A stretch of DNA of 43,778 bases, taken from an uncultured Mucilaginibacter sp. (GTDB taxonomy: Bacteria; Bacteroidota; Bacteroidia; Sphingobacteriales; Sphingobacteriaceae). The notes below the pieces were generated by a model, which saw only the letters and a list, made by a program, of their open reading frames with translations, searched no databases and was not told the origin of the DNA. The number at the start of each line of letters is the position of its first letter. Position 1 is the stretch's first letter. The stretch covers positions 1-43,778 of the forward strand of contig CAIPPO010000033.1 of the NCBI GenBank assembly GCA_903866915.1, in the 5' to 3' direction. The position numbers and the translations under genes were made by a program. This document shows, in pieces, positions 29,234 to 39,331 of this stretch.

Positions 29234-30142
29234 TTATTTCGGAATGGTGTAATAATATATCGGTGCAAAAGCCCCCTCACTGGTGGTATAATAACCTTTG
29301 CCATCAAGGGTAAAACCGATGGCTTCACCCTGCTTTTCGGGTTTGTAGGGCAATTCGGTTGGCGTTTTCAACATCGTTTTCCAGACAGGTTCGTTATTGC
29401 TACGTTTCCAGTAATAAACCTTTTCGTAGCTTTTCAATAGTATTTGCTGACCATCGCGCGAGATATCACCAGCGGTGATCCACTTAAACGGTCTGAAACC
29501 GTTGAAATATAATTTGCACTTTTTACTGAGTATCAGGGTGTCGTTGGCCTTAAAGTTTAGTGGAGTTGTATAAACTGTAACCGAGTCGGACCTTTTCGAA
29601 ACGATATAGATCAGTTTTTCTATCGGGTCGATCATCAGGCTTTCTGCATCTTTAGGGCCATCGGGGTATTTGTAGTGTACCGGAACTACTTCCGCGTTTT
29701 TGATCAGACTGTCCTTGGCCCAATTTGGTTTTTCTTCAAACCGATAGATCGTGATGTACTTTCTCACGCCACGGTTATCACCAATATCACCAAGGTAAAC
29801 ATAGCTTTTGTTTTTATCCGGACCGATACCTACTGCTATATCCTCGCAATCAACGGCGCCAAGCGTTTGGCTGGGATCGCCCTTAAAATAGATCACATTT
29901 TTCAAGGTACCATCCGGGGTGATCGCAAAAAACCTGCTGGTGTCTCCGCTATCGTTATGGATATAGTAGATATCTTTCCGGATACCGGAAACAGCAATTC
30001 CCGATATCTCATCCATTTCCTTGATGCGTAAACGACCGGTGATATTAAGTTGTTGCGCATCATGCCTGTGCTCGGCAAAAGCCGCGAAAAATAAGATAAC
30101 AACAATAGGGATGATGATCTTTATTTTTCTTGAACGGCTCAT
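29234..30142 (-). CDS. Secreted beta-propeller-like protein, hypothetical
   Basis: This 302-aa protein has an N-terminal hydrophobic segment (residues 8-22, IKIIIPIVVILFFAAFA) acting as signal or anchor. The body has repeating strand-rich units: RIKEMDEISGIAVSG, YYIHNDSGDTSRFFAI, DCEDIAVGIGPDKNKSYVYLGDIGDN, PDGPKDAESLMIDPIEKLIYIVSKR and AGDISRDGQQILLKSY. These suggest a propeller related to SdiA-regulated or phytase-like proteins, with HNDSGD and DIGDN as acidic, possibly Ca2+-binding loops. Proteins of this kind are widespread in Bacteroidota without a known role. It is convergent with the hydroxyproline operon and probably unrelated. Confidence 0.72.
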   Translation of the reverse strand: MSRSRKIKIIIPIVVILFFAAFAEHRHDAQQLNITGRLRIKEMDEISGIAVSGIRKDIYYIHNDSGDTSRFFAITPDGTLKNVIYFKGDPSQTLGAVDCEDIAVGIGPDKNKSYVYLGDIGDNRGVRKYITIYRFEEKPNWAKDSLIKNAEVVPVHYKYPDGPKDAESLMIDPIEKLIYIVSKRSDSVTVYTTPLNFKANDTLILSKKCKLYFNGFRPFKWITAGDISRDGQQILLKSYEKVYYWKRSNNEPVWKTMLKTPTELPYKPEKQGEAIGFTLDGKGYYTTSEGAFAPIYYYTIPK

Positions 30143-30239: not shown

Positions 30240-30680
30240 TTAGTTTGTTGCGGCTACCAGCGCCGATCGTTCAAAATTTAATATTTCATCGGCGCTGCGG
30301 TAATCAGCAAGGCCTATTTCATGCAGATATTTGCAATTGCATGGATGCCCAGGTGAAACATATACCGGCATATCAAAACCCAGTTGCTGGTAATAGGGGG
30401 TGATAAATGCCTGAACCGGTAAATTATTCGCTGTCTCTATGATCGATGAGGTGAGCTTACGCAATGGTTTGAGCAGGAGTTTTACCTCGCAAACTTTGAA
30501 ACGATCGGTAAACGGGATCCAGCGATGAACATCATCAATGGCAACCAACAGGGCTCCTTGTCGTATGCCTTTAATGGTGCCAATACTCTCTTCTTCGTTC
30601 AAATAACTCCGTATCACCACCTGCTGTCCCAGGTAACGGCTGAAAATTATCAATTGTTCGGCTGCGCTTAATCGATCCAT
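30240..30680 (-). CDS. Conserved hypothetical cytosolic protein, 146 aa
   Basis: I chose the ATG at 30680 (MDRLSAAEQLIIFSRYLGQQVVI). Upstream in-frame codons to 30728 overlap a consensus promoter, which decides the start. The N-terminal half reads GQQVVIRSYLNEEESIGTIKGIRQGALLVAIDDVHRWIPFTDRFKVCEVKLLLKPL, strand-rich and resembling a small SH3-like or barrel domain. The C-terminal half holds GFDMPVYVSPGHPCNCKYLHEIGLADYRSADEILNFER, with a CNC pair. There is no signal peptide or membrane segment. I do not recognise a named family. It lies 67 nt after the desaturase gene but has its own promoter. Confidence 0.62.
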   Translation of the reverse strand: MDRLSAAEQLIIFSRYLGQQVVIRSYLNEEESIGTIKGIRQGALLVAIDDVHRWIPFTDRFKVCEVKLLLKPLRKLTSSIIETANNLPVQAFITPYYQQLGFDMPVYVSPGHPCNCKYLHEIGLADYRSADEILNFERSALVAATN

Positions 30681-30698
30681 AAATGCTAAATATATTAG

Positions 30699-30729
30699 CA
30701 AATATAAATGTTGCAGGTCAAAAACCAAA
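30699..30729 (-). promoter_or_regulatory. Consensus promoter of the 146-aa hypothetical gene
   Basis: On the minus strand TTTG (30726-30729) and TATATTTG (30699-30706) are 19 nt apart, an exact TTTG-N19-TANNTTTG match. Transcription should start about 12 nt before the ATG at 30680. Confidence 0.55.
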
Positions 30730-30747: not shown

Positions 30748-31752
30748 TTAGTTAATTAATTCAGCTTCAAGGTCGGGTTTTGAAACGTCGGTAAGGGCCA
30801 CTTTGCCACGTTCTTTTCTTACGATACGGTTGTAAAGGGAAATTTCCTTTTCAAAAAGGAAGCGGAAAAATAGCATGGTCCATGACTTATGCGACTGCAG
30901 GGAATCGTAATATTCAGGTGCAGCGCGTTTCAGTTCTGGTAGCTTATTCCATGGGATAGAAGGGAAATCGTGGTGCTCATTGTGATAGCCAACGTTGAAC
31001 GCAACTGTATTTAATACACCGTAATAGCTATACGTTTCCTGTTCTGATTGAAAAGTAAGGTAGTGTTCCTGTACCCAGCGTGCGCCAAGGGGATGCAGGC
31101 CGATAGAGAACCAAAAACTAATAAACATAAAGGCAACCGCATGAAAGCCGATAAAATACCAAACAGCGGCTGTAAAGGCTATCTGCACAACAATGTTGAT
31201 CATCAGCCAGGTATCAAAAAATTTGATCTCCTTCAAACGTGAAACACGTGTTCCCTGAAAGATTGGGAAGAAAAGCAGCCAAAGCACTTTACCAATAAAA
31301 TAGTTATTGATCAGTTTTGCTTCCCAGCGGTTAGGTAAGTCGGCATCCAGTTCGTGAATACCCTGGAATGAGTGGTGTTTGATATGGTATTTCTCGAAAG
31401 AAATTGCACCCGGCATGATATGTGGCAGGTTGGCAAAAATTGCTGCCCAACGATTTGCGAGCGCATTTTTAAACAGCAATTGGTGCGCACACTCGTGGAT
31501 CATTACAAAAAGCGAATGGTTGGCAAAAGCCCCATAACAATAGGCAGCCGCAAAAACGATCCACCATGACTGGTCGCGAACCAACCAGGCTACACCCAGC
31601 ATAGAACCCACCAGGCCTATGATAGCGACCATGGTCAGCGGGTTTTTACCAATTAGATTTCTAACTTGAGGAAACTGTTTTAAGATTTTTTTAGTACGAA
31701 TACGATGTGGTTCAGATTCGGTAGAATAGACAAAATCAGTTCTAAATGCCAT
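30748..31752 (-). CDS. Sphingolipid delta-4 desaturase-like fatty acid desaturase
   Basis: This 334-aa membrane desaturase has the three His boxes HECAH (86-90), HIKHH (123-127) and HNEHH (257-261) that bind the di-iron centre. The N terminus (FVYSTESEPHRIRTKKILKQFPQVRNLIG) matches the lipid-desaturase N-terminal domain of eukaryotic dihydroceramide desaturases. The C-terminal third follows human DEGS1 closely: GLHP, EHY, ETYSYYGVLN, NVGYHNEHHDFPSIP and AAPEYYDSL. The family introduces the delta-4 double bond of sphingosine into dihydroceramide. Sphingolipids are native to Sphingobacteria, so the substrate is plausible. No sphingolipid-synthesis genes are nearby, and activity is inferred. Confidence 0.88.
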   Translation of the reverse strand: MAFRTDFVYSTESEPHRIRTKKILKQFPQVRNLIGKNPLTMVAIIGLVGSMLGVAWLVRDQSWWIVFAAAYCYGAFANHSLFVMIHECAHQLLFKNALANRWAAIFANLPHIMPGAISFEKYHIKHHSFQGIHELDADLPNRWEAKLINNYFIGKVLWLLFFPIFQGTRVSRLKEIKFFDTWLMINIVVQIAFTAAVWYFIGFHAVAFMFISFWFSIGLHPLGARWVQEHYLTFQSEQETYSYYGVLNTVAFNVGYHNEHHDFPSIPWNKLPELKRAAPEYYDSLQSHKSWTMLFFRFLFEKEISLYNRIVRKERGKVALTDVSKPDLEAELIN

Positions 31753-31938: not shown

Positions 31939-34900
31939 TCAATGTGTTTGGTGGAATTTACCTGAACGATAGAAAATTTGAAGCATACTCGGCAGTACGA
32001 TCAGCAGCAAAGGTAAGGCGATAAGGAAACCGCCAATTACTGCAATTGCCAGGGGTTGGTGCAATTGCGCCCCAGCGCCAATACCCAGTGCTAAAGGCAT
32101 TAACGCAACAATGGCTCCGATAGCGGTCATTAATTTAGGTCGCAGGCGGGTTGATATGGCATATACTATAGCTTCGTTGATGTCCTGGTGTACGATGCCC
32201 GGGTGATTTTCCATGATCTCGAGCGCCCGTTGTTTGAATTGCAAAAAGGTAAATATGGCATTTTCGCCGATGATACCAACGATCATGATCAGCCCGGTAT
32301 AACTGCCAACATTTAGGGGCGTTTTGGTGATGTATAAAGCCATCAGACTTCCGGAAGTACCTAATATTGCTATGATCAAAATAAGCAAGGCTATGCGGAA
32401 CTGTTTGAACAGGAACAGGATAACGCCGAAGACCAATAAGCAGGCAACGATCAATATGGTCATTAATTCTTTGAACGATTGTTGTTGTTGCGCATAGTCG
32501 CCACCATATTCTATGTGGAAACCTTCGGGCAGATTTACATTTTGGGCTATACTTTTTTGTATGGCCGGCATTACGCTGCCAATATCGGCACTATCTAAAC
32601 GGGCAGTAACAATACCCATGGCCTGCAGGTTTTCGCGATTGATCTCAGCTTCGCCACCGGAAAGCTTTACCGTAGCAAGTTCATTGATCGGGATCAGTTT
32701 TCCTGCCGGAGTAAAAACAGTTTCATTCTTTATATCTTCAACTTTAAGTGTCCTGTTGCCGGGGTAGACCATTCTGATGGGCGACAATTGCTCACGCTCG
32801 AGGATATTTCCTATGATGTTGCCTTCCAGTGATGTTTGCAATTGAAACTGCAGGCTGGCCGGTGTAATATTATATTGAGCCAATTTACTATAGATCGGAT
32901 CGATACTCACTGAAGGGCCGGCAATGACTATACCATCCAAAACATCAGCAGTACCCTTTACGGTGCTGGTGGCTTTTGCTATTTGTTTTGAAAGCTCATG
33001 CAATTTATCCGGGTTGTCGCCAAATACTTTGATCTGAATTGGCTCGACAGATGTCGTCAGATCGCCAAGCATATCCGTTATTACCTGTCCGAATTCGATC
33101 ACCAAAGCAGGTTGGTTGACGGCTATCTTCTGACGAAGTTCGCTTATCACCTCGTCGGTAGTTCTGTCTCTTTTCTTTTTTAGCTGGATCAGGTAATCGC
33201 CGCGGTTAGGCTCAGTGATAAAGAAACCCATTTCGGTTCCCGTCCGGCGGGAGTAGGCATTAACTTCGGGAACTTTAACGATGATCTTTTCTACTTCACG
33301 TAACATCCTGTCTGTTTCTTCCAGCGATGTACCGGCGGGCGAATGGTAATCGAGCACGATACTACCTTCGTCCATATCCGGCAGGAAGCCGGTTTCCAGC
33401 AAGCCAGGTAATATGGCCAGTGCTGCAATGCAAACACCCATAATGATCAAACTTAACCAGGGGTGCAGGATAAACCATTTGACCCATTGTTGTTTTTTAA
33501 CCAGGTGTATCTCTTCCTTTTGATCGCGACTTATTTTCTTCTTATTTTTTCGGGTGAGCAATAAATAGATAACAGGCAAGCCGATCCATGTTACAAAGAA
33601 TGAACACACCAGCGTGATGATCATGGTGTTCGTCAGAATATTAAAATAAGCTCCGGCAACACCACTCATTAAAAAGAAAGGAACGAATATCACAATAGTG
33701 CTGACTGACGAACCTATCATAGCAGGGAAAAGGTAATCGATCGCTTTTTGCAGGATAGTGGATGTGGGTTCGTCAGGATGCTCTTCGTGGGTTCTATGGA
33801 TCTGCTCCACCACTACAATAGCATCATCAATGATCAAACCTATGGCTGCCGCTATAGCGCCCAGGGTCATGATGTTGAAGGTATAACCAAGCCCGTATAA
33901 TACCAACAGGGTAAGACCAAGTGTAACCGGTATGGTGATCAAAATGGTAGCGCTTGCCTTCAATGAACGAAGGAATATGACCGCAACAATAATAGCAAGC
34001 AGCAAACCTATCCAAAGACTGTCGCTTACGCTTTTGATCGAGTCGTTCACAAAATCAGCCTGAATATAATAGGGTTTTATGGTAACGTCCTTCGGCAATA
34101 GTTTTTGCAGATCGGTGACTTTGGCAGCCATATCAGATGATAGGGATACCAGGTTTGCATTGGGCTGTTTGATCACTGCGATGAGCACGCCCGGGTGTCC
34201 ATTTGCATTGATCTTTACGTATTCGGTCCCTTCATCAATATTAATTTGAGCAAAATCTTTCAGTCTTGTAATTCTCTTACGGTTATTGCCAATCACCAGG
34301 TTTGCCAACTGGTCCTTTGCGTTGATGGTGGCATCGGTAACAGTAAGATAGAAGAGTTTATAGTCGGATAAATACCCCTCAGATTTTACAAAATTGGTAT
34401 TGCTAAGCGTCGTACTGATGATATCAGGCGTTAAGCCAAGCGAACTCATTTTTTGCTTATCCAGCGTAAGCCAGTATTCTTTCGCCTTCCCACCAATTAT
34501 CCTGATCTCGGAAACCCCATCGACCTGTGAAAGAAAAGGTTTGATCGTATAGGTAGCCAATTGACGCAATTCGATGGGGCTACGGGTATGGCTTTCAAGG
34601 GTGTAGCCACTTACCGGCAGGATGGAAGGATTCATTTTCGCAACCGTAATATTTACGTCGGCGGGTAATTCATTTTTTACCTGATCGATACTGCTTTGGA
34701 TACGCTGCTGGGCGAGGTCGATATCAGAGCCCCAGTTTAAATAGGCAGATATTTCGCAACTACCGCGACCGGTAGTGCTTCTTACAGTTTGCAATTCAGG
34801 CACCTGTTTAATGGCGTTTTCTAACGGCTTGGTAACCGTAACCATCATTTTATTAACCGGCTGCAAACCTTCTTCAGCTATGATCTTTATTTTAGGAAAT

Positions 34901-35025
34901 GTAATCTCGGGGAAAAGCGAGGTCTGCATTTTTGAATACACAAACAAACCACTCATGATAATGAGTGAAAGCACCAGGCTAAGTGGTTTTTTGTGCGATA
35001 TGAAGAAATCCCTGATCGGTGTCAT
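31939..35025 (-). CDS. RND family efflux transporter permease
   Basis: This 1028-aa inner-membrane protein has the 12-helix, two-large-loop plan of AcrB/MexB-type pumps. It has an N-terminal helix (about 12-31), a periplasmic porter domain, and TM4 with the proton-relay pair Asp400-Asp401 in GLIIDDAIVVVEQ. The DD pair is the HAE (drug-exporter) signature; metal pumps of the CzcA/CusA group usually carry DG there. The second half repeats the layout (NVGSYTGLIMIVGIIGENAIFTFLQFK). Its start overlaps the adaptor stop by one base (TAATG). Adaptor and TolC genes precede it, completing a tripartite pump. Cargo is unknown. Confidence 0.92.
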   Translation of the reverse strand: MTPIRDFFISHKKPLSLVLSLIIMSGLFVYSKMQTSLFPEITFPKIKIIAEEGLQPVNKMMVTVTKPLENAIKQVPELQTVRSTTGRGSCEISAYLNWGSDIDLAQQRIQSSIDQVKNELPADVNITVAKMNPSILPVSGYTLESHTRSPIELRQLATYTIKPFLSQVDGVSEIRIIGGKAKEYWLTLDKQKMSSLGLTPDIISTTLSNTNFVKSEGYLSDYKLFYLTVTDATINAKDQLANLVIGNNRKRITRLKDFAQINIDEGTEYVKINANGHPGVLIAVIKQPNANLVSLSSDMAAKVTDLQKLLPKDVTIKPYYIQADFVNDSIKSVSDSLWIGLLLAIIVAVIFLRSLKASATILITIPVTLGLTLLVLYGLGYTFNIMTLGAIAAAIGLIIDDAIVVVEQIHRTHEEHPDEPTSTILQKAIDYLFPAMIGSSVSTIVIFVPFFLMSGVAGAYFNILTNTMIITLVCSFFVTWIGLPVIYLLLTRKNKKKISRDQKEEIHLVKKQQWVKWFILHPWLSLIIMGVCIAALAILPGLLETGFLPDMDEGSIVLDYHSPAGTSLEETDRMLREVEKIIVKVPEVNAYSRRTGTEMGFFITEPNRGDYLIQLKKKRDRTTDEVISELRQKIAVNQPALVIEFGQVITDMLGDLTTSVEPIQIKVFGDNPDKLHELSKQIAKATSTVKGTADVLDGIVIAGPSVSIDPIYSKLAQYNITPASLQFQLQTSLEGNIIGNILEREQLSPIRMVYPGNRTLKVEDIKNETVFTPAGKLIPINELATVKLSGGEAEINRENLQAMGIVTARLDSADIGSVMPAIQKSIAQNVNLPEGFHIEYGGDYAQQQQSFKELMTILIVACLLVFGVILFLFKQFRIALLILIIAILGTSGSLMALYITKTPLNVGSYTGLIMIVGIIGENAIFTFLQFKQRALEIMENHPGIVHQDINEAIVYAISTRLRPKLMTAIGAIVALMPLALGIGAGAQLHQPLAIAVIGGFLIALPLLLIVLPSMLQIFYRSGKFHQTH

Positions 35026-35972
35026 TATTGTACGATTTTTATTTTGGCCGTATCAGGTAAACCGTAATTGCCGGTAACAACTATCTTGTCACCTGGTTGG
35101 AATTTAGGCGACAATACTTCTATCCGGTCACCAGTCTCGATACCCCTGGTGATCGGAATTTTTACAGCTGTAGTTTGGTTGATCAGTTTCATCACCCAAA
35201 ATTCTGTTTGGGTTTCATTTGATAATACCGCATCTTTTGGCAGCGATTGGGTTTTGTTTTTTGCCGATTTAACGATCCGTGCTTTTGCTACCAGGTTTTC
35301 GGGTATTTGCTGCCCGCTGTTTACTTTTAAAACTACTGCCTGAGTTTGGGCAACCGTATCTACCGATGGCATAAACGAACTGACCGTGCCATCTAAATTT
35401 TGCCCCCCTGGCAGGCTAAGCCTGATATGCTCATTCAGATTTACATATTGCCGTAATTCGTAGGGTAACTGAAGCAGGAATACGAAACTTGAGCGATCGC
35501 TTATCGTAGCCAGAGCCTCGCCGTCCTGCACGTAATCGCCAAGCTGATGATTCATTTGTGATATGTACCCGTTTTTAGATGATTTTATCTTGCTTAATCC
35601 TGAAAACTTCAGCGTTGAGTCTAATACCGAAATACTGTTGCCGATCGCCTGGGCCTCTTTAGTTTTTATTTCAAACAATAGCTGCCCGATTTTCACTTCC
35701 TGACCCTGTTGGGTATTTACTTTAGTGATATAGCCGATAGCGTTTGATTTGACGTAGTTTTTTTGAAGAAATACCGAGGTTGCATTCAAGTCGATATAAT
35801 CAGTCATTGAATTTTGGTCGATCGTGGTTACCGTAACAGGTGTTTGGGCTTCAACCTTTGATGTATCTTCGTCGTCAGCTTTTTTGTTGCTGGTACAGGA
35901 GCTAAGCGCAATAGTTAAACCCGCAACTAAATAAAGCAGCTGACCGGTGTATTTGGCGATCTTTGTTTTCAT
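35025..35972 (-). CDS. RND periplasmic adaptor lipoprotein (MFP)
   Basis: This 315-aa protein has an SpII lipobox LSSC (Cys26). It has a lipoyl/barrel-sandwich split into AIGYITKVNTQQGQEVKIGQLLFEI and KIKSSKNGYISQMNHQLGDYVQDGEALATI, with only a short hairpin between the halves. A beta-barrel (HIRLSLPGGQNLDGTVSSF) and a membrane-proximal domain (RGIETGDRIEVLSPKFQPGDKIVVTGNYGL) follow. It links the inner-membrane RND protein to the TolC protein. It starts 1 nt after the TolC gene ends. The short hairpin is typical of compact Bacteroidota adaptors. Confidence 0.9.
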   Translation of the reverse strand: MKTKIAKYTGQLLYLVAGLTIALSSCTSNKKADDEDTSKVEAQTPVTVTTIDQNSMTDYIDLNATSVFLQKNYVKSNAIGYITKVNTQQGQEVKIGQLLFEIKTKEAQAIGNSISVLDSTLKFSGLSKIKSSKNGYISQMNHQLGDYVQDGEALATISDRSSFVFLLQLPYELRQYVNLNEHIRLSLPGGQNLDGTVSSFMPSVDTVAQTQAVVLKVNSGQQIPENLVAKARIVKSAKNKTQSLPKDAVLSNETQTEFWVMKLINQTTAVKIPITRGIETGDRIEVLSPKFQPGDKIVVTGNYGLPDTAKIKIVQ

Positions 35973-35973
35973 G

Positions 35974-37212
35974 TTACTTATTCCAGTAGTTTAATTGGTT
36001 GATCAATTGTAATTTACTGATCAGGGTTTGTGTTTTCAGGTTCCTTACGGTCAGGTAATTATTGATAGCTAATATCAGGTCGGCAATTTTAACATCACCG
36101 TTTTCCAGTAATTTAGTGTCCACTTTGATCAGCGTTTCTGAATATTTTATCTGATCTTCAATTTGTGGCATCAGTGTTTCATTTTCATTGATCTGCTGTG
36201 TCAGCTGGGCAATTTGCTGGCGGTATTGCACATTAAAAAAGGCTTTGTAATTTTCCCTGGTCTCCTCTTCCAGCGAAAATTTTTTGTATTGTAATTTCCG
36301 CTGCCCGCCATCATAAAGCGGTATCGATAAACCAAAGCCAAAACTGGTACCGAAATTTCTCCAGGCCTGTCCCATAAAGTCGCTGTTATAACCCGCGTCG
36401 GCAAAAATATTTGCTTTGGGTTTATAAGTATAGTCTAGCTGCTGGCGACTGTTGACGATCTTTAAACTGTCAAGCCGGTATTGCGTAAAAAATATACTGT
36501 TATTATTAGTAAATGGTACGATCCGCTCTAAACCAGGGTAGCTGAGTTCGGTTTGGGTGGTGTCTGCAATACCTGCCAGGTAGTTCAAGGTGGCGAAATC
36601 ATTTTTATATTGCAAACGGGCTTGCGATAATTGAAGTTCCTGTTGTTTTAACGTTACCAGGAAAGTCAGGTAATCGCTTTGATGGTAAACGTTATTCTGG
36701 GTAAGCTTTTTCAACACTTCTTCTTCCGAACTTAGTAGTGTAACGATCTCGCGGTTGAATTTTAGTTGTTGCTGGTCGCCATAGGTAGTAACATATTGTG
36801 CAGTTATAGCTTTTTTCAGATCCTGCTCAGATATCCTCGCCTGATTCATCGTTGATGCTGATTGCAGCGAAATGCCTTCCAACTGGGTATTGACGTTATT
36901 TTTACTGACAATAGCCTTATTGATACCTACCAGACCATTGAGCGTATGGGCATTAGTGATGGGTTCGGAATACCCTACGCTACCAATTGTAGGCGCATAC
37001 AAACCAGCACTTGTTAAAGCGACCTGGGGTTTGTAACCGGCTAACAATCTCAAGCTATCTAATTGATTAGAAGCTATCTGGTTACTGAGATCTTTAATAA
37101 GTGGACTATTGCTTTTGGCTAACTCAATATAGCGATCTAAAGTATTGATCGATTGCGCAAATGAATGGAAGGAAATAAATACGGTTAAAAAAACGCCAAA
37201 AAGCCATTTCAT
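35974..37212 (-). CDS. TolC family outer membrane efflux protein
   Basis: This 412-aa protein has a signal peptide (about 1-20, FGVFLTVFISFHSFAQ). It has the duplicated helical plan of TolC/OprM: LDRYIELAKSNSPLIKDLSNQIASNQLDSLRLLAGYKPQVAL in the first repeat, and DAGYNSDFMGQAWRNFGTSFGFGLSIPLYDGGQRKLQYKKF, with the conserved sIPLYDGGQR motif, in the second. Long periplasmic helices follow each. It forms the outer-membrane channel of the pump. It is the first gene of the efflux operon, 68 nt after the histidine kinase, so it may be co-transcribed with the regulators. Confidence 0.9.
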   Translation of the reverse strand: MKWLFGVFLTVFISFHSFAQSINTLDRYIELAKSNSPLIKDLSNQIASNQLDSLRLLAGYKPQVALTSAGLYAPTIGSVGYSEPITNAHTLNGLVGINKAIVSKNNVNTQLEGISLQSASTMNQARISEQDLKKAITAQYVTTYGDQQQLKFNREIVTLLSSEEEVLKKLTQNNVYHQSDYLTFLVTLKQQELQLSQARLQYKNDFATLNYLAGIADTTQTELSYPGLERIVPFTNNNSIFFTQYRLDSLKIVNSRQQLDYTYKPKANIFADAGYNSDFMGQAWRNFGTSFGFGLSIPLYDGGQRKLQYKKFSLEEETRENYKAFFNVQYRQQIAQLTQQINENETLMPQIEDQIKYSETLIKVDTKLLENGDVKIADLILAINNYLTVRNLKTQTLISKLQLINQLNYWNK

Positions 37213-37280
37213 TAAATACTGTGTTGAGGATTTTGCACTAAAATAAATATTTAATTCTGTAAAAATTTAGGATAAGCGGG

Positions 37281-38558
37281 TCAGAATCTAACGGTGAATA
37301 TATGTAAACCATTATTGAAAGTGTAAAGTAGTTCGAAACCAAGGTTTTCGCAAATCTGTTTTGATATGGTTAGGCCAAGGCCACTGCCTTCGGAGCTTGT
37401 AGATTTACTAAATCGTTTAAATACCTGCTCGGGTTGTAACGCAGTATTTTCACCGGTATTTTCTATAACCAGGTAATTTGCCATTAGGTTGATATTGATA
37501 TTACCACCCTGATAATTGTGCCTGATGGCATTGCTGAAAAGATTATTCAAAAGCACTTCTACCAGGTAGGGGTTTGTATCGAGTGCTTTTTCGCTCAAAT
37601 TAACATTTACAATTAGTTGCTTATCATTAAATATCTCCTCGAACTGAACAACCAGGTCTTCAACAATTGATGTCAGGTTAATGTTCTTATGGCCTTCGAC
37701 CAAGCGATTTTCAATCTTCACGAGCAGCAATAGCGACTGGTTAAGCCTCGTCAAACGAGATACGGCACTGTACAGGTCATTTAATAATTTGCTTTGCTGG
37801 TCTGAGAAATGCTCGGTTTGTAACAAGGTATCCAATTTGGAATTAATGACTGCAATTGGTGTAAGCAATTCGTGTGAGGCATTTTCTGTAAAAGTTTTAA
37901 GGTCCTTATAGTCGTTTTTTACCCGTGATGACATAGCGCTCACAGCCTGGTTCAGCTCTTTGAATTCGTCGATATTTGTTTCCGGTTGCGGAATGCTATT
38001 TGGATCGGATAGGTTAAATGAACGTAGTTCCAGCAGCAAATTATGGAACGGTTGCCATAGGCGATTAAGCAATAAACGGTTAGTCATGAAAAGTACCAAT
38101 AACAATAGCAGGATTACCCCCGAAGTGATACCAAAGATAATTGTAAGCAGATCCTCAGTTTCAACGGTCGATTTCACAATCAATATCTTGTAGTATTTAC
38201 CTCCTACCATAACCGAGCTAATCAGGCCGCGACCTGATTCAAAAACCTCATGACGGTGATGGCGGCCATGGTGCTCAGAGGGGAAATTACGGTACAAAGT
38301 ATCCAGATAGGCGCGCTTAACAATTCCCGGAGCCACTTCTTCAAACCGGATCTGCTGATCTTCCGACTCAAATACCTGAGGTAAAATATGATTGATGCGC
38401 ACATATTCAAATATTTCATGCTCTTCAACAGCCAGGTCTTTGTCTATGTCTTCTACCAATATCAGCTTTATGGCTACATAGTAAATGATGCCGGTAAATA
38501 ACATGACAACAATAGTGGTAACCAGCGTTACCCGGTTATATTTGGAAAGTAGTTTCAT
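37281..38558 (-). CDS. Sensor histidine kinase with His-rich periplasmic loop
   Basis: This 425-aa protein has two membrane helices (about 10-31 and 138-158) flanking a 105-aa periplasmic sensor. The cytosolic part has a HAMP-like linker, an H-box with His229 in ENASHELLTPIAVINSK, an N-box LLNNLFSNAIRHN and a G-box EGSGLGLTISKQI. The sensor holds SEHHGRHHRHEVFESG (about 94-109), with five His in eight residues, which suggests metal sensing. The start overlaps the response-regulator stop by 4 nt (ATGA). It likely phosphorylates that regulator and controls the adjoining efflux operon. Confidence 0.9.
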   Translation of the reverse strand: MKLLSKYNRVTLVTTIVVMLFTGIIYYVAIKLILVEDIDKDLAVEEHEIFEYVRINHILPQVFESEDQQIRFEEVAPGIVKRAYLDTLYRNFPSEHHGRHHRHEVFESGRGLISSVMVGGKYYKILIVKSTVETEDLLTIIFGITSGVILLLLLVLFMTNRLLLNRLWQPFHNLLLELRSFNLSDPNSIPQPETNIDEFKELNQAVSAMSSRVKNDYKDLKTFTENASHELLTPIAVINSKLDTLLQTEHFSDQQSKLLNDLYSAVSRLTRLNQSLLLLVKIENRLVEGHKNINLTSIVEDLVVQFEEIFNDKQLIVNVNLSEKALDTNPYLVEVLLNNLFSNAIRHNYQGGNININLMANYLVIENTGENTALQPEQVFKRFSKSTSSEGSGLGLTISKQICENLGFELLYTFNNGLHIFTVRF

Positions 38559-39232
38559 TGCTCAGTAAGTTTGTAGCCCATGCCGTAGGTTGCATGGATA
38601 TAGTCATTGCTTCCAGCCTCGAGTAACTTCTTTCGCAGGTTTTTGATGTGCGAATATATAAAGTCGAAATTATTGGCCATATCTATCCCATCTCCCCAAA
38701 GATGTTCGGCGATAGCATTTTTAGAAACTACTTTTTCTTTGTTTGCAACAAAATACAGCAAAAGGGCATATTCTTTACGGGTAAGCTTAACCGGCTGGTC
38801 ATTAACTTTGATCGATTTGGCCAACAGGTCGATAGCGATCTCATTAAACAAAAGGATATTACTCCCGTTGAACGATTTCCTTCGGATAATTGCTGATACC
38901 CTTGCCCTGAGTTCTGAAAGGTGAAATGGTTTTACGAGGTAATCATCCGCGCCCAGGTCAAGTCCTTCAAGCCTGTCGTCTAAAGAGTTTTTTGCCGAGA
39001 TGATCAAAATCCCGTCGTTGTATTCTTTTTGTTTAATTGTTTTTAAAATATCAATTCCATTACCGCCGGGGAGTGTAATATCCAATAAAATGCAATCATA
39101 GCGGTATAAGCTAACTTTAGCCAATGCTTCAGCATAGGTGGAAGCTATTTCACAAATGTTCCCTGCTTCGGCAAAATATTCTTCAATACTTTCCCGTAGT
39201 CCTTTTTCGTCCTCTATAATAAGTAACTTCAT
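38555..39232 (-). CDS. OmpR/PhoB family response regulator
   Basis: I chose the ATG at 39232 (MKLLIIEDEKGLRESI, 225 aa). The upstream frame to 39307 is AT-rich and not conserved-looking. The receiver domain has acidic residues in IEDE, phospho-acceptor Asp51 in CILLDITLPGG, Ser79 in LIISAK and Lys101 in LVKPF. A winged-helix DNA-binding domain follows (about 130-222; LTRKEYALLLYFVANKEKVVSKN, HIKNLRKKLLEAGSNDYIHATYGMGYKL). It is the first gene of the regulator-efflux unit, and the EamA gene diverges from it across 99 nt. Confidence 0.92.
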   Translation of the reverse strand: MKLLIIEDEKGLRESIEEYFAEAGNICEIASTYAEALAKVSLYRYDCILLDITLPGGNGIDILKTIKQKEYNDGILIISAKNSLDDRLEGLDLGADDYLVKPFHLSELRARVSAIIRRKSFNGSNILLFNEIAIDLLAKSIKVNDQPVKLTRKEYALLLYFVANKEKVVSKNAIAEHLWGDGIDMANNFDFIYSHIKNLRKKLLEAGSNDYIHATYGMGYKLTEQ

Positions 39233-39331
39233 TGAAAAATAATTTTTATAAAAATATAAACAGATTTTGTACAAATATTGTAATTGTGAATTCACATGCT
39301 GATGCAATTCAATATTTAATCTATTAAAACT

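Follow-up and report, generated by a model that had tools for sequence, protein, structure and literature searches.

Does a soil bacterium encode a homologue of the eukaryotic dihydroceramide delta-4 desaturases (the DES family), and on which of its lipids would such an enzyme act? The question is raised by an open reading frame in a 43,778 nt stretch of DNA (contig CAIPPO010000033.1, hereafter the window) from an uncultured species of Mucilaginibacter, a genus of soil bacteria. Bacterial sphingolipids have been described as simple, and desaturases are said to be absent (PMC12724326). If a DES family extends across the Bacteroidota, the range of lipids open to these bacteria would be different, unsaturated sphingoid bases would be less straightforward to use as a host marker in lipidomics, and there would be candidates to explain why the enzyme is shared between eukaryotes and bacteria.

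The reading frame and its product

The frame starts with ATG, has no internal stop and encodes 334 aa. Its conserved parts are given below, with invariance scored in an alignment (A1) of the window protein and 18 diverse bacterial relatives, 19 members in all.

30748..31752 (-), DES-family membrane desaturase, 334 aa (open frame, PF08557 and PF00487 matches, 19-member alignment, AlphaFold2 model)
31639..31743 (-), N-terminal Lipid_DES segment (PF08557), residues 4-38; P15-H16 and R19 invariant
31483..31497 (-), His box 1, HECAH, residues 86-90; H86 and H90 invariant
31372..31386 (-), His box 2, HIKHH, residues 123-127; H123, H126 and H127 invariant
30970..30984 (-), His box 3, HNEHH, residues 257-261; H257, N258, E259, H260 and H261 invariant
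30898..30915 (-), EYYDSL motif, residues 280-285; Y282 and L285 invariant

A preliminary description, made from the letters of this DNA, had proposed a bacterial homologue of the eukaryotic DES family that matches DEGS-type enzymes over its full length, with an N-terminal lipid-desaturase segment, three His boxes and an EYYDSL region. The segment, the boxes and the EYYDSL region are borne out, and the full-length match is supported by the two Pfam domains. The Pfam Lipid_DES domain (PF08557) matches residues 4-38 with E 9.5e-13 and 47.8 bits (cut-off 23), and FA_desaturase (PF00487) matches residues 63-283 with E 1.7e-27, also over its cut-off. A PF08557 search of 14 control genomes gave no matches, so the match in the window is far beyond chance, and within its own genome the protein is the sole significant match. 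The metal-ligand His positions of all three boxes are invariant among the 19 members. A provisional human DEGS1 sequence, taken as corroboration only, aligns over 322 aa with 38% identity (E 7e-81). No NCBIfam equivalog covers the protein, its sole match there being far below that model's cut-off, and the PDB sequence set gave no DES match. With both Pfam domains over cut-off, the window protein is confirmed, at the level of sequence, as a genuine member of the DES family.

The AlphaFold2 model built from A1 (pLDDT 82.6, pTM 0.84) was better than an alternative, A2 (pLDDT 64.9), which was set aside, and the A1 model was used for comparisons. Its predicted fold is of the membrane di-iron desaturase/AlkB type. 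AlkB aligns with Z 14.6 (rmsd 4.3, 262 aligned) and the stearoyl-CoA desaturase SCD1 more weakly (Z 6.6, rmsd 5.4, 197 aligned); both share the membrane di-iron fold with the model but are only 14-16% identical to the window protein and have other substrates. The model also matches two chains from FtsHi complexes of Chlamydomonas, with Z 18.2 and 17.3.

Distribution and gene neighbourhood

The DES gene is widespread in the Bacteroidota, and the window organism is no exception. PF08557 was found over cut-off in 40 of 395 genomes drawn across the phylum, and relatives were confirmed at 581 or more loci of public genomes. Among the matches listed, those with 69-84% identity belong to Mucilaginibacter species and Bacteroidetes MAGs, followed by relatives in the Chitinophagaceae (66-72%). 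Most complete Mucilaginibacter genomes carry the gene (31 of the 37 sampled genomes had a match). Three of the six without a match are incomplete assemblies (58-71%). In three near-complete Mucilaginibacter genomes SPT and SulA are present and DES is absent.

The genes on either side of the window DES lie on the same strand, and 186 bases separate it from the efflux permease upstream.

29234..30142 (-), 302-aa protein, second gene downstream of DES (PF01731 match below cut-off, E 0.0036)
30240..30728 (-), 162-aa protein, first gene downstream of DES, predicted TTG start
31939..35025 (-), upstream neighbour, RND efflux permease (profile match)
35025..35972 (-), RND adaptor, upstream of the permease
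35974..37212 (-), outer-membrane factor, upstream of the adaptor
37281..38558 (-), histidine kinase matching the PorY model
38555..39307 (-), response regulator, forming a two-component system with the kinase

A complete RND efflux set and a two-component system (31939-39307) thus lie directly upstream of DES. An RND homologue occurs within 4 kb upstream of DES at 26 of 80 public loci, all of them Mucilaginibacter-like and none from Chitinophagaceae. The 302-aa protein, which weakly resembles arylesterase/phytase-like beta-propellers, has a homologue on the DES strand, no more than 4 kb downstream, at 40 of the 80 loci, again all Mucilaginibacter-like; among the Chitinophagaceae loci of this set there are none. 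The 162-aa protein has no Pfam family over cut-off, even at E 5, and its homologues, on the same strand and within 4 kb of DES, were seen at 14 of the 80 loci and at none from Chitinophagaceae. Neighbourhoods were also compared across 30 stretches from the sampled genomes and 13 named loci, with Pfam searches on selected neighbours only. They vary between families. An operon link between DES and base synthesis was considered and rejected, as no recognised SPT or SulA stands beside any DES examined. In one genome of another class (G070, family f17) a PF04116 hydroxylase gene lies directly upstream of DES on the same strand (L186:10102-10605).

Long-chain-base synthesis and the substrate of the desaturase

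Both long-chain-base pathways are encoded in the window genome. Contig C193 carries an SPT that scores 734.8 bits on the Bacteroidota equivalog NF047600 (cut-off 640) and whose closest structures are of the Sphingobacterium type (3a2b, E 6.6e-186), which supports a capacity of this genome to make sphingoid bases. Directly downstream of SPT is a gene for a 372-aa GNAT acyltransferase; the GNAT fold is that reported for bacterial ceramide synthases, and by analogy the protein is a putative ceramide synthase. Further along the same stretch (L072) are genes for myo-inositol-phosphate synthase and PIP synthase, and the stretch also encodes a protein resembling phosphoinositol dihydroceramide synthase, whose 317 bits fall short of the cut-off of 480. 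A fatty-acid-hydroxylase-like gene (PF04116, L072:973-1620) adjoins the gene for this last protein and is a candidate sphingolipid hydroxylase. Contig C72 carries a SulA homologue, which matches a cysteate C-fatty acyltransferase structure (28eh) with E 3.8e-174. SulA starts the synthesis of sulfonolipids, which are ceramide analogues with a sulfonate head, and capnine, the product of the SulA pathway, is the sulfonate analogue of sphinganine. Since SPT and SulA are both encoded, N-acylated 2-amino-3-hydroxy bases of two kinds are probably produced by the organism.

The co-occurrence of the three genes was counted in 98 genomes of the window's class, 15 of which carry DES. All three genes are present in nine genomes; DES with SulA and without SPT in six (G146, G150, G249, G371, G387 and G391); DES with SPT and without SulA in none; SPT and SulA without DES in two; SPT by itself in seven, several of which may be anaerobic; and SulA alone in 74. 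The six DES carriers without SPT are 99-100% complete. In the alpha-oxoamine synthase tree, the genes fetched from G146, G371, G387 and G391 are only of the KBL and SulA types, and in G150 and G249 a match to SPT is absent at 1e-130 and SulA is present. Close homologues of the window DES are therefore not confined to genomes with SPT: in a tree of 37 DES sequences, the window protein falls in a clade of 15 rows (95/98), some from carriers that have SPT and some from carriers that lack it, and the DES of five of the six (all but G387) is placed there.

SulA is present in all 15 DES carriers of the class, but it is near-universal in the class (91 of 98), so this co-occurrence is not significant (p 0.59). 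SPT is found in 9 of the 15 carriers vs 9 of the 83 other genomes (p 9e-5; 0.09 without the window's genus), p-values that are only rough because genomes are not independent samples. Outside the class, eight carriers of family f24 have SulA, together with an enzyme of the SPT clade in each of the three examined. The 17 carriers of f17, f35 and f43 are without SulA, and each of the 13 examined encodes an SPT-clade enzyme; their scores on the SPT model for Bacteroidota, 477-526 bits, are below its cut-off of 640, and it is from the tree that we read them as SPTs. Enzymes from f17, f24, f35 and f43 (L208-L223; 477-526 bits) form a deep group of alpha-oxoamine synthases that joins SPT (98/94) and are possibly unrecognised SPTs. 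Every DES carrier examined encodes some long-chain-base synthase. As far as checked, DES is thus uncoupled from SPT and from SulA, and never from long-chain-base synthesis. Loss of DES within Mucilaginibacter was considered as a test of the substrate and is uninformative, because SPT and SulA are both present in all 28 genomes of the genus that were checked.

Recognition of the backbone that all these bases share would produce such a pattern. In the best reading, to which we give about an even chance, the enzyme desaturates N-acylated long-chain bases at the delta-4 position and accepts either head group. The delta-4 reaction on an N-acylated base is itself likely. The window protein would be an integral-membrane di-iron desaturase that uses O2 and electrons to place a double bond, probably trans, between C4 and C5 of a long-chain base of the 2-N-acylamino-3-hydroxy type. 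For this enzyme we infer an N-acylated rather than a free base as substrate, with the shared backbone being read more than the C1 head group; its substrates in the window Mucilaginibacter would then be dihydroceramide-type lipids, N-acylcapnine (a sulfonolipid), or both. Counted against this reading are the association of DES with SPT in the class, the near-universal SulA of the class sample, the below-cut-off scores of the SPT-like enzymes outside the class, the Mucilaginibacter genomes that have SPT and SulA without DES, and the lack of an operon link. The preliminary description took a delta-4 desaturase to imply sphingosine-type lipids. The presence of SPT agrees with this, but with SulA in the genome and six carriers of the class without SPT the implication is not secure, and the true target may be a sulfonolipid instead of, or besides, a ceramide.

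Two readings narrow the substrate to one of these lipids. An enzyme restricted to dihydroceramide, giving sphingosine-type and perhaps iso-branched bases, would account for the SPT and inositol-sphingolipid cluster of the window genome, for SPT in all 28 Mucilaginibacter genomes, for the SPT-DES association in the class (weaker once the genus is removed), and for the SPT-clade enzymes found, where examined, in the SulA-less carriers outside the class. It does not sit well with the six near-complete or complete carriers that have SulA and no SPT, the five placed ones all in the window's clade, nor with the absence of DES from all seven SPT-only genomes of the class, several of them perhaps anaerobes; the statement, in a 2025 Sphingobacterium paper, that bacterial sphingolipids stay simple without such desaturases (PMC12724326) also speaks against it, and we regard it as rather improbable.

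The opposite restriction is equally tentative: the window's clade may consist of delta-4 desaturases dedicated to sulfonolipids (N-acylcapnine), and may supply the missing enzyme behind delta-4-unsaturated bacterial sulfonolipids such as flavocristamide A. Flavocristamide A and the sulfonolipids of Cyclobacterium marinus and Salinibacter have a double bond beside the hydroxyl-bearing carbon of the base. To our knowledge, no DES-family enzyme has a known role as a sulfonolipid desaturase, and the exact chemical phrases for delta-4 sulfonolipid structures were not found in the literature searched. The sulfonolipid pathway (SulA/CapB, CapC and N-acylation) yields a 2-amino-3-hydroxy base with an amide, the same backbone as dihydroceramide. 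Passages describing SulA/CapB, CapC and the sulfobacins (in PMC9304779, PMC11211663 and PMC10191378) name no sulfonolipid desaturase, and the assignment of this step to the window DES is our proposal. If the target is a sulfonolipid, the enzyme would provide a further tailoring reaction for a class of bioactive lipids that is known to trigger choanoflagellate colony formation (PMC3463246).

The head-group-tolerant reading also has to be weighed against enzymes of a different kind. Desaturation of another lipid (phospholipid acyl chains or aminoacyl lipids), the DES-like N-terminus being retained by descent only, would agree with the lack of an operon link to base synthesis and with the annotation of the only plasmid match, a distant cyanobacterial protein (26% identity), as 'fatty acid desaturase'. 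It is made unlikely by the DES-specific N-terminal segment, over cut-off in 40 of 40 sampled carriers, and by the base synthase in all carriers examined. Least probable is a C4-hydroxylase, or a bifunctional hydroxylase/desaturase, giving 4-hydroxy bases: the eukaryotic DES family includes C4-hydroxylase activity (mammalian DEGS2 is bifunctional) and sequence cannot separate the two reactions for the window DES, but the hydroxylation could come from another protein, the PF04116 hydroxylase encoded near the genes for inositol sphingolipids.

Relation to the eukaryotic enzymes

The window DES and eukaryotic DEGS1/DES have in common the PF08557 and PF00487 domains, the three His boxes and the EYYDxL region and, as judged with the provisional DEGS1 sequence, would be colinear over the full length. 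The DES of f24, f17, f35 and f43, all from other classes, likewise have both Pfam domains over cut-off. A scan of viral contigs for giant-virus or eukaryotic DES found none; since no eukaryotic or viral DES was found in the databases searched, the eukaryotic side of the 37-sequence tree is represented by the provisional human DEGS1 sequence, serving only as a clade marker. In this tree DEGS1 groups with three sequences of f24 (L003-L005; 94/85), to which it is 43-49% identical, and lies outside the window's clade (38%). Independently of this marker, L003 scores higher on PF08557 than the window protein (65.6 vs 47.8 bits). Together, the grouping and the score make a part of f24, a family in another class of the phylum, more promising than the window lineage for tracing where the eukaryotic enzyme came from. 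The preliminary description held that the window gene bears on that origin; the bacterial sequences nearest DEGS1 in this tree are those of f24.

The window DES has the short motifs HPLGARW.QEHY and SIPWN, where the eukaryotic-like counterparts are HP..GHFI.EHY and NIPG; some f24 sequences (L003-L006) differ from the window DES in having GHFI and IPG-type motifs. The split between GARW/IPWN and GHFI/IPG was considered as a predictor of the head group and rejected, because SulA-only genomes have GARW/IPWN and so do genomes that lack SulA. A second DES-family paralogue is present in the Mucilaginibacter genomes G415 and G413 (L238:8898-9989 and L239:9103-10113) and is 35-36% identical to the window DES; it has the eukaryote-like motifs HP.AGHFI.EHF and NIPG, and in L238 its PF08557 match is over cut-off.
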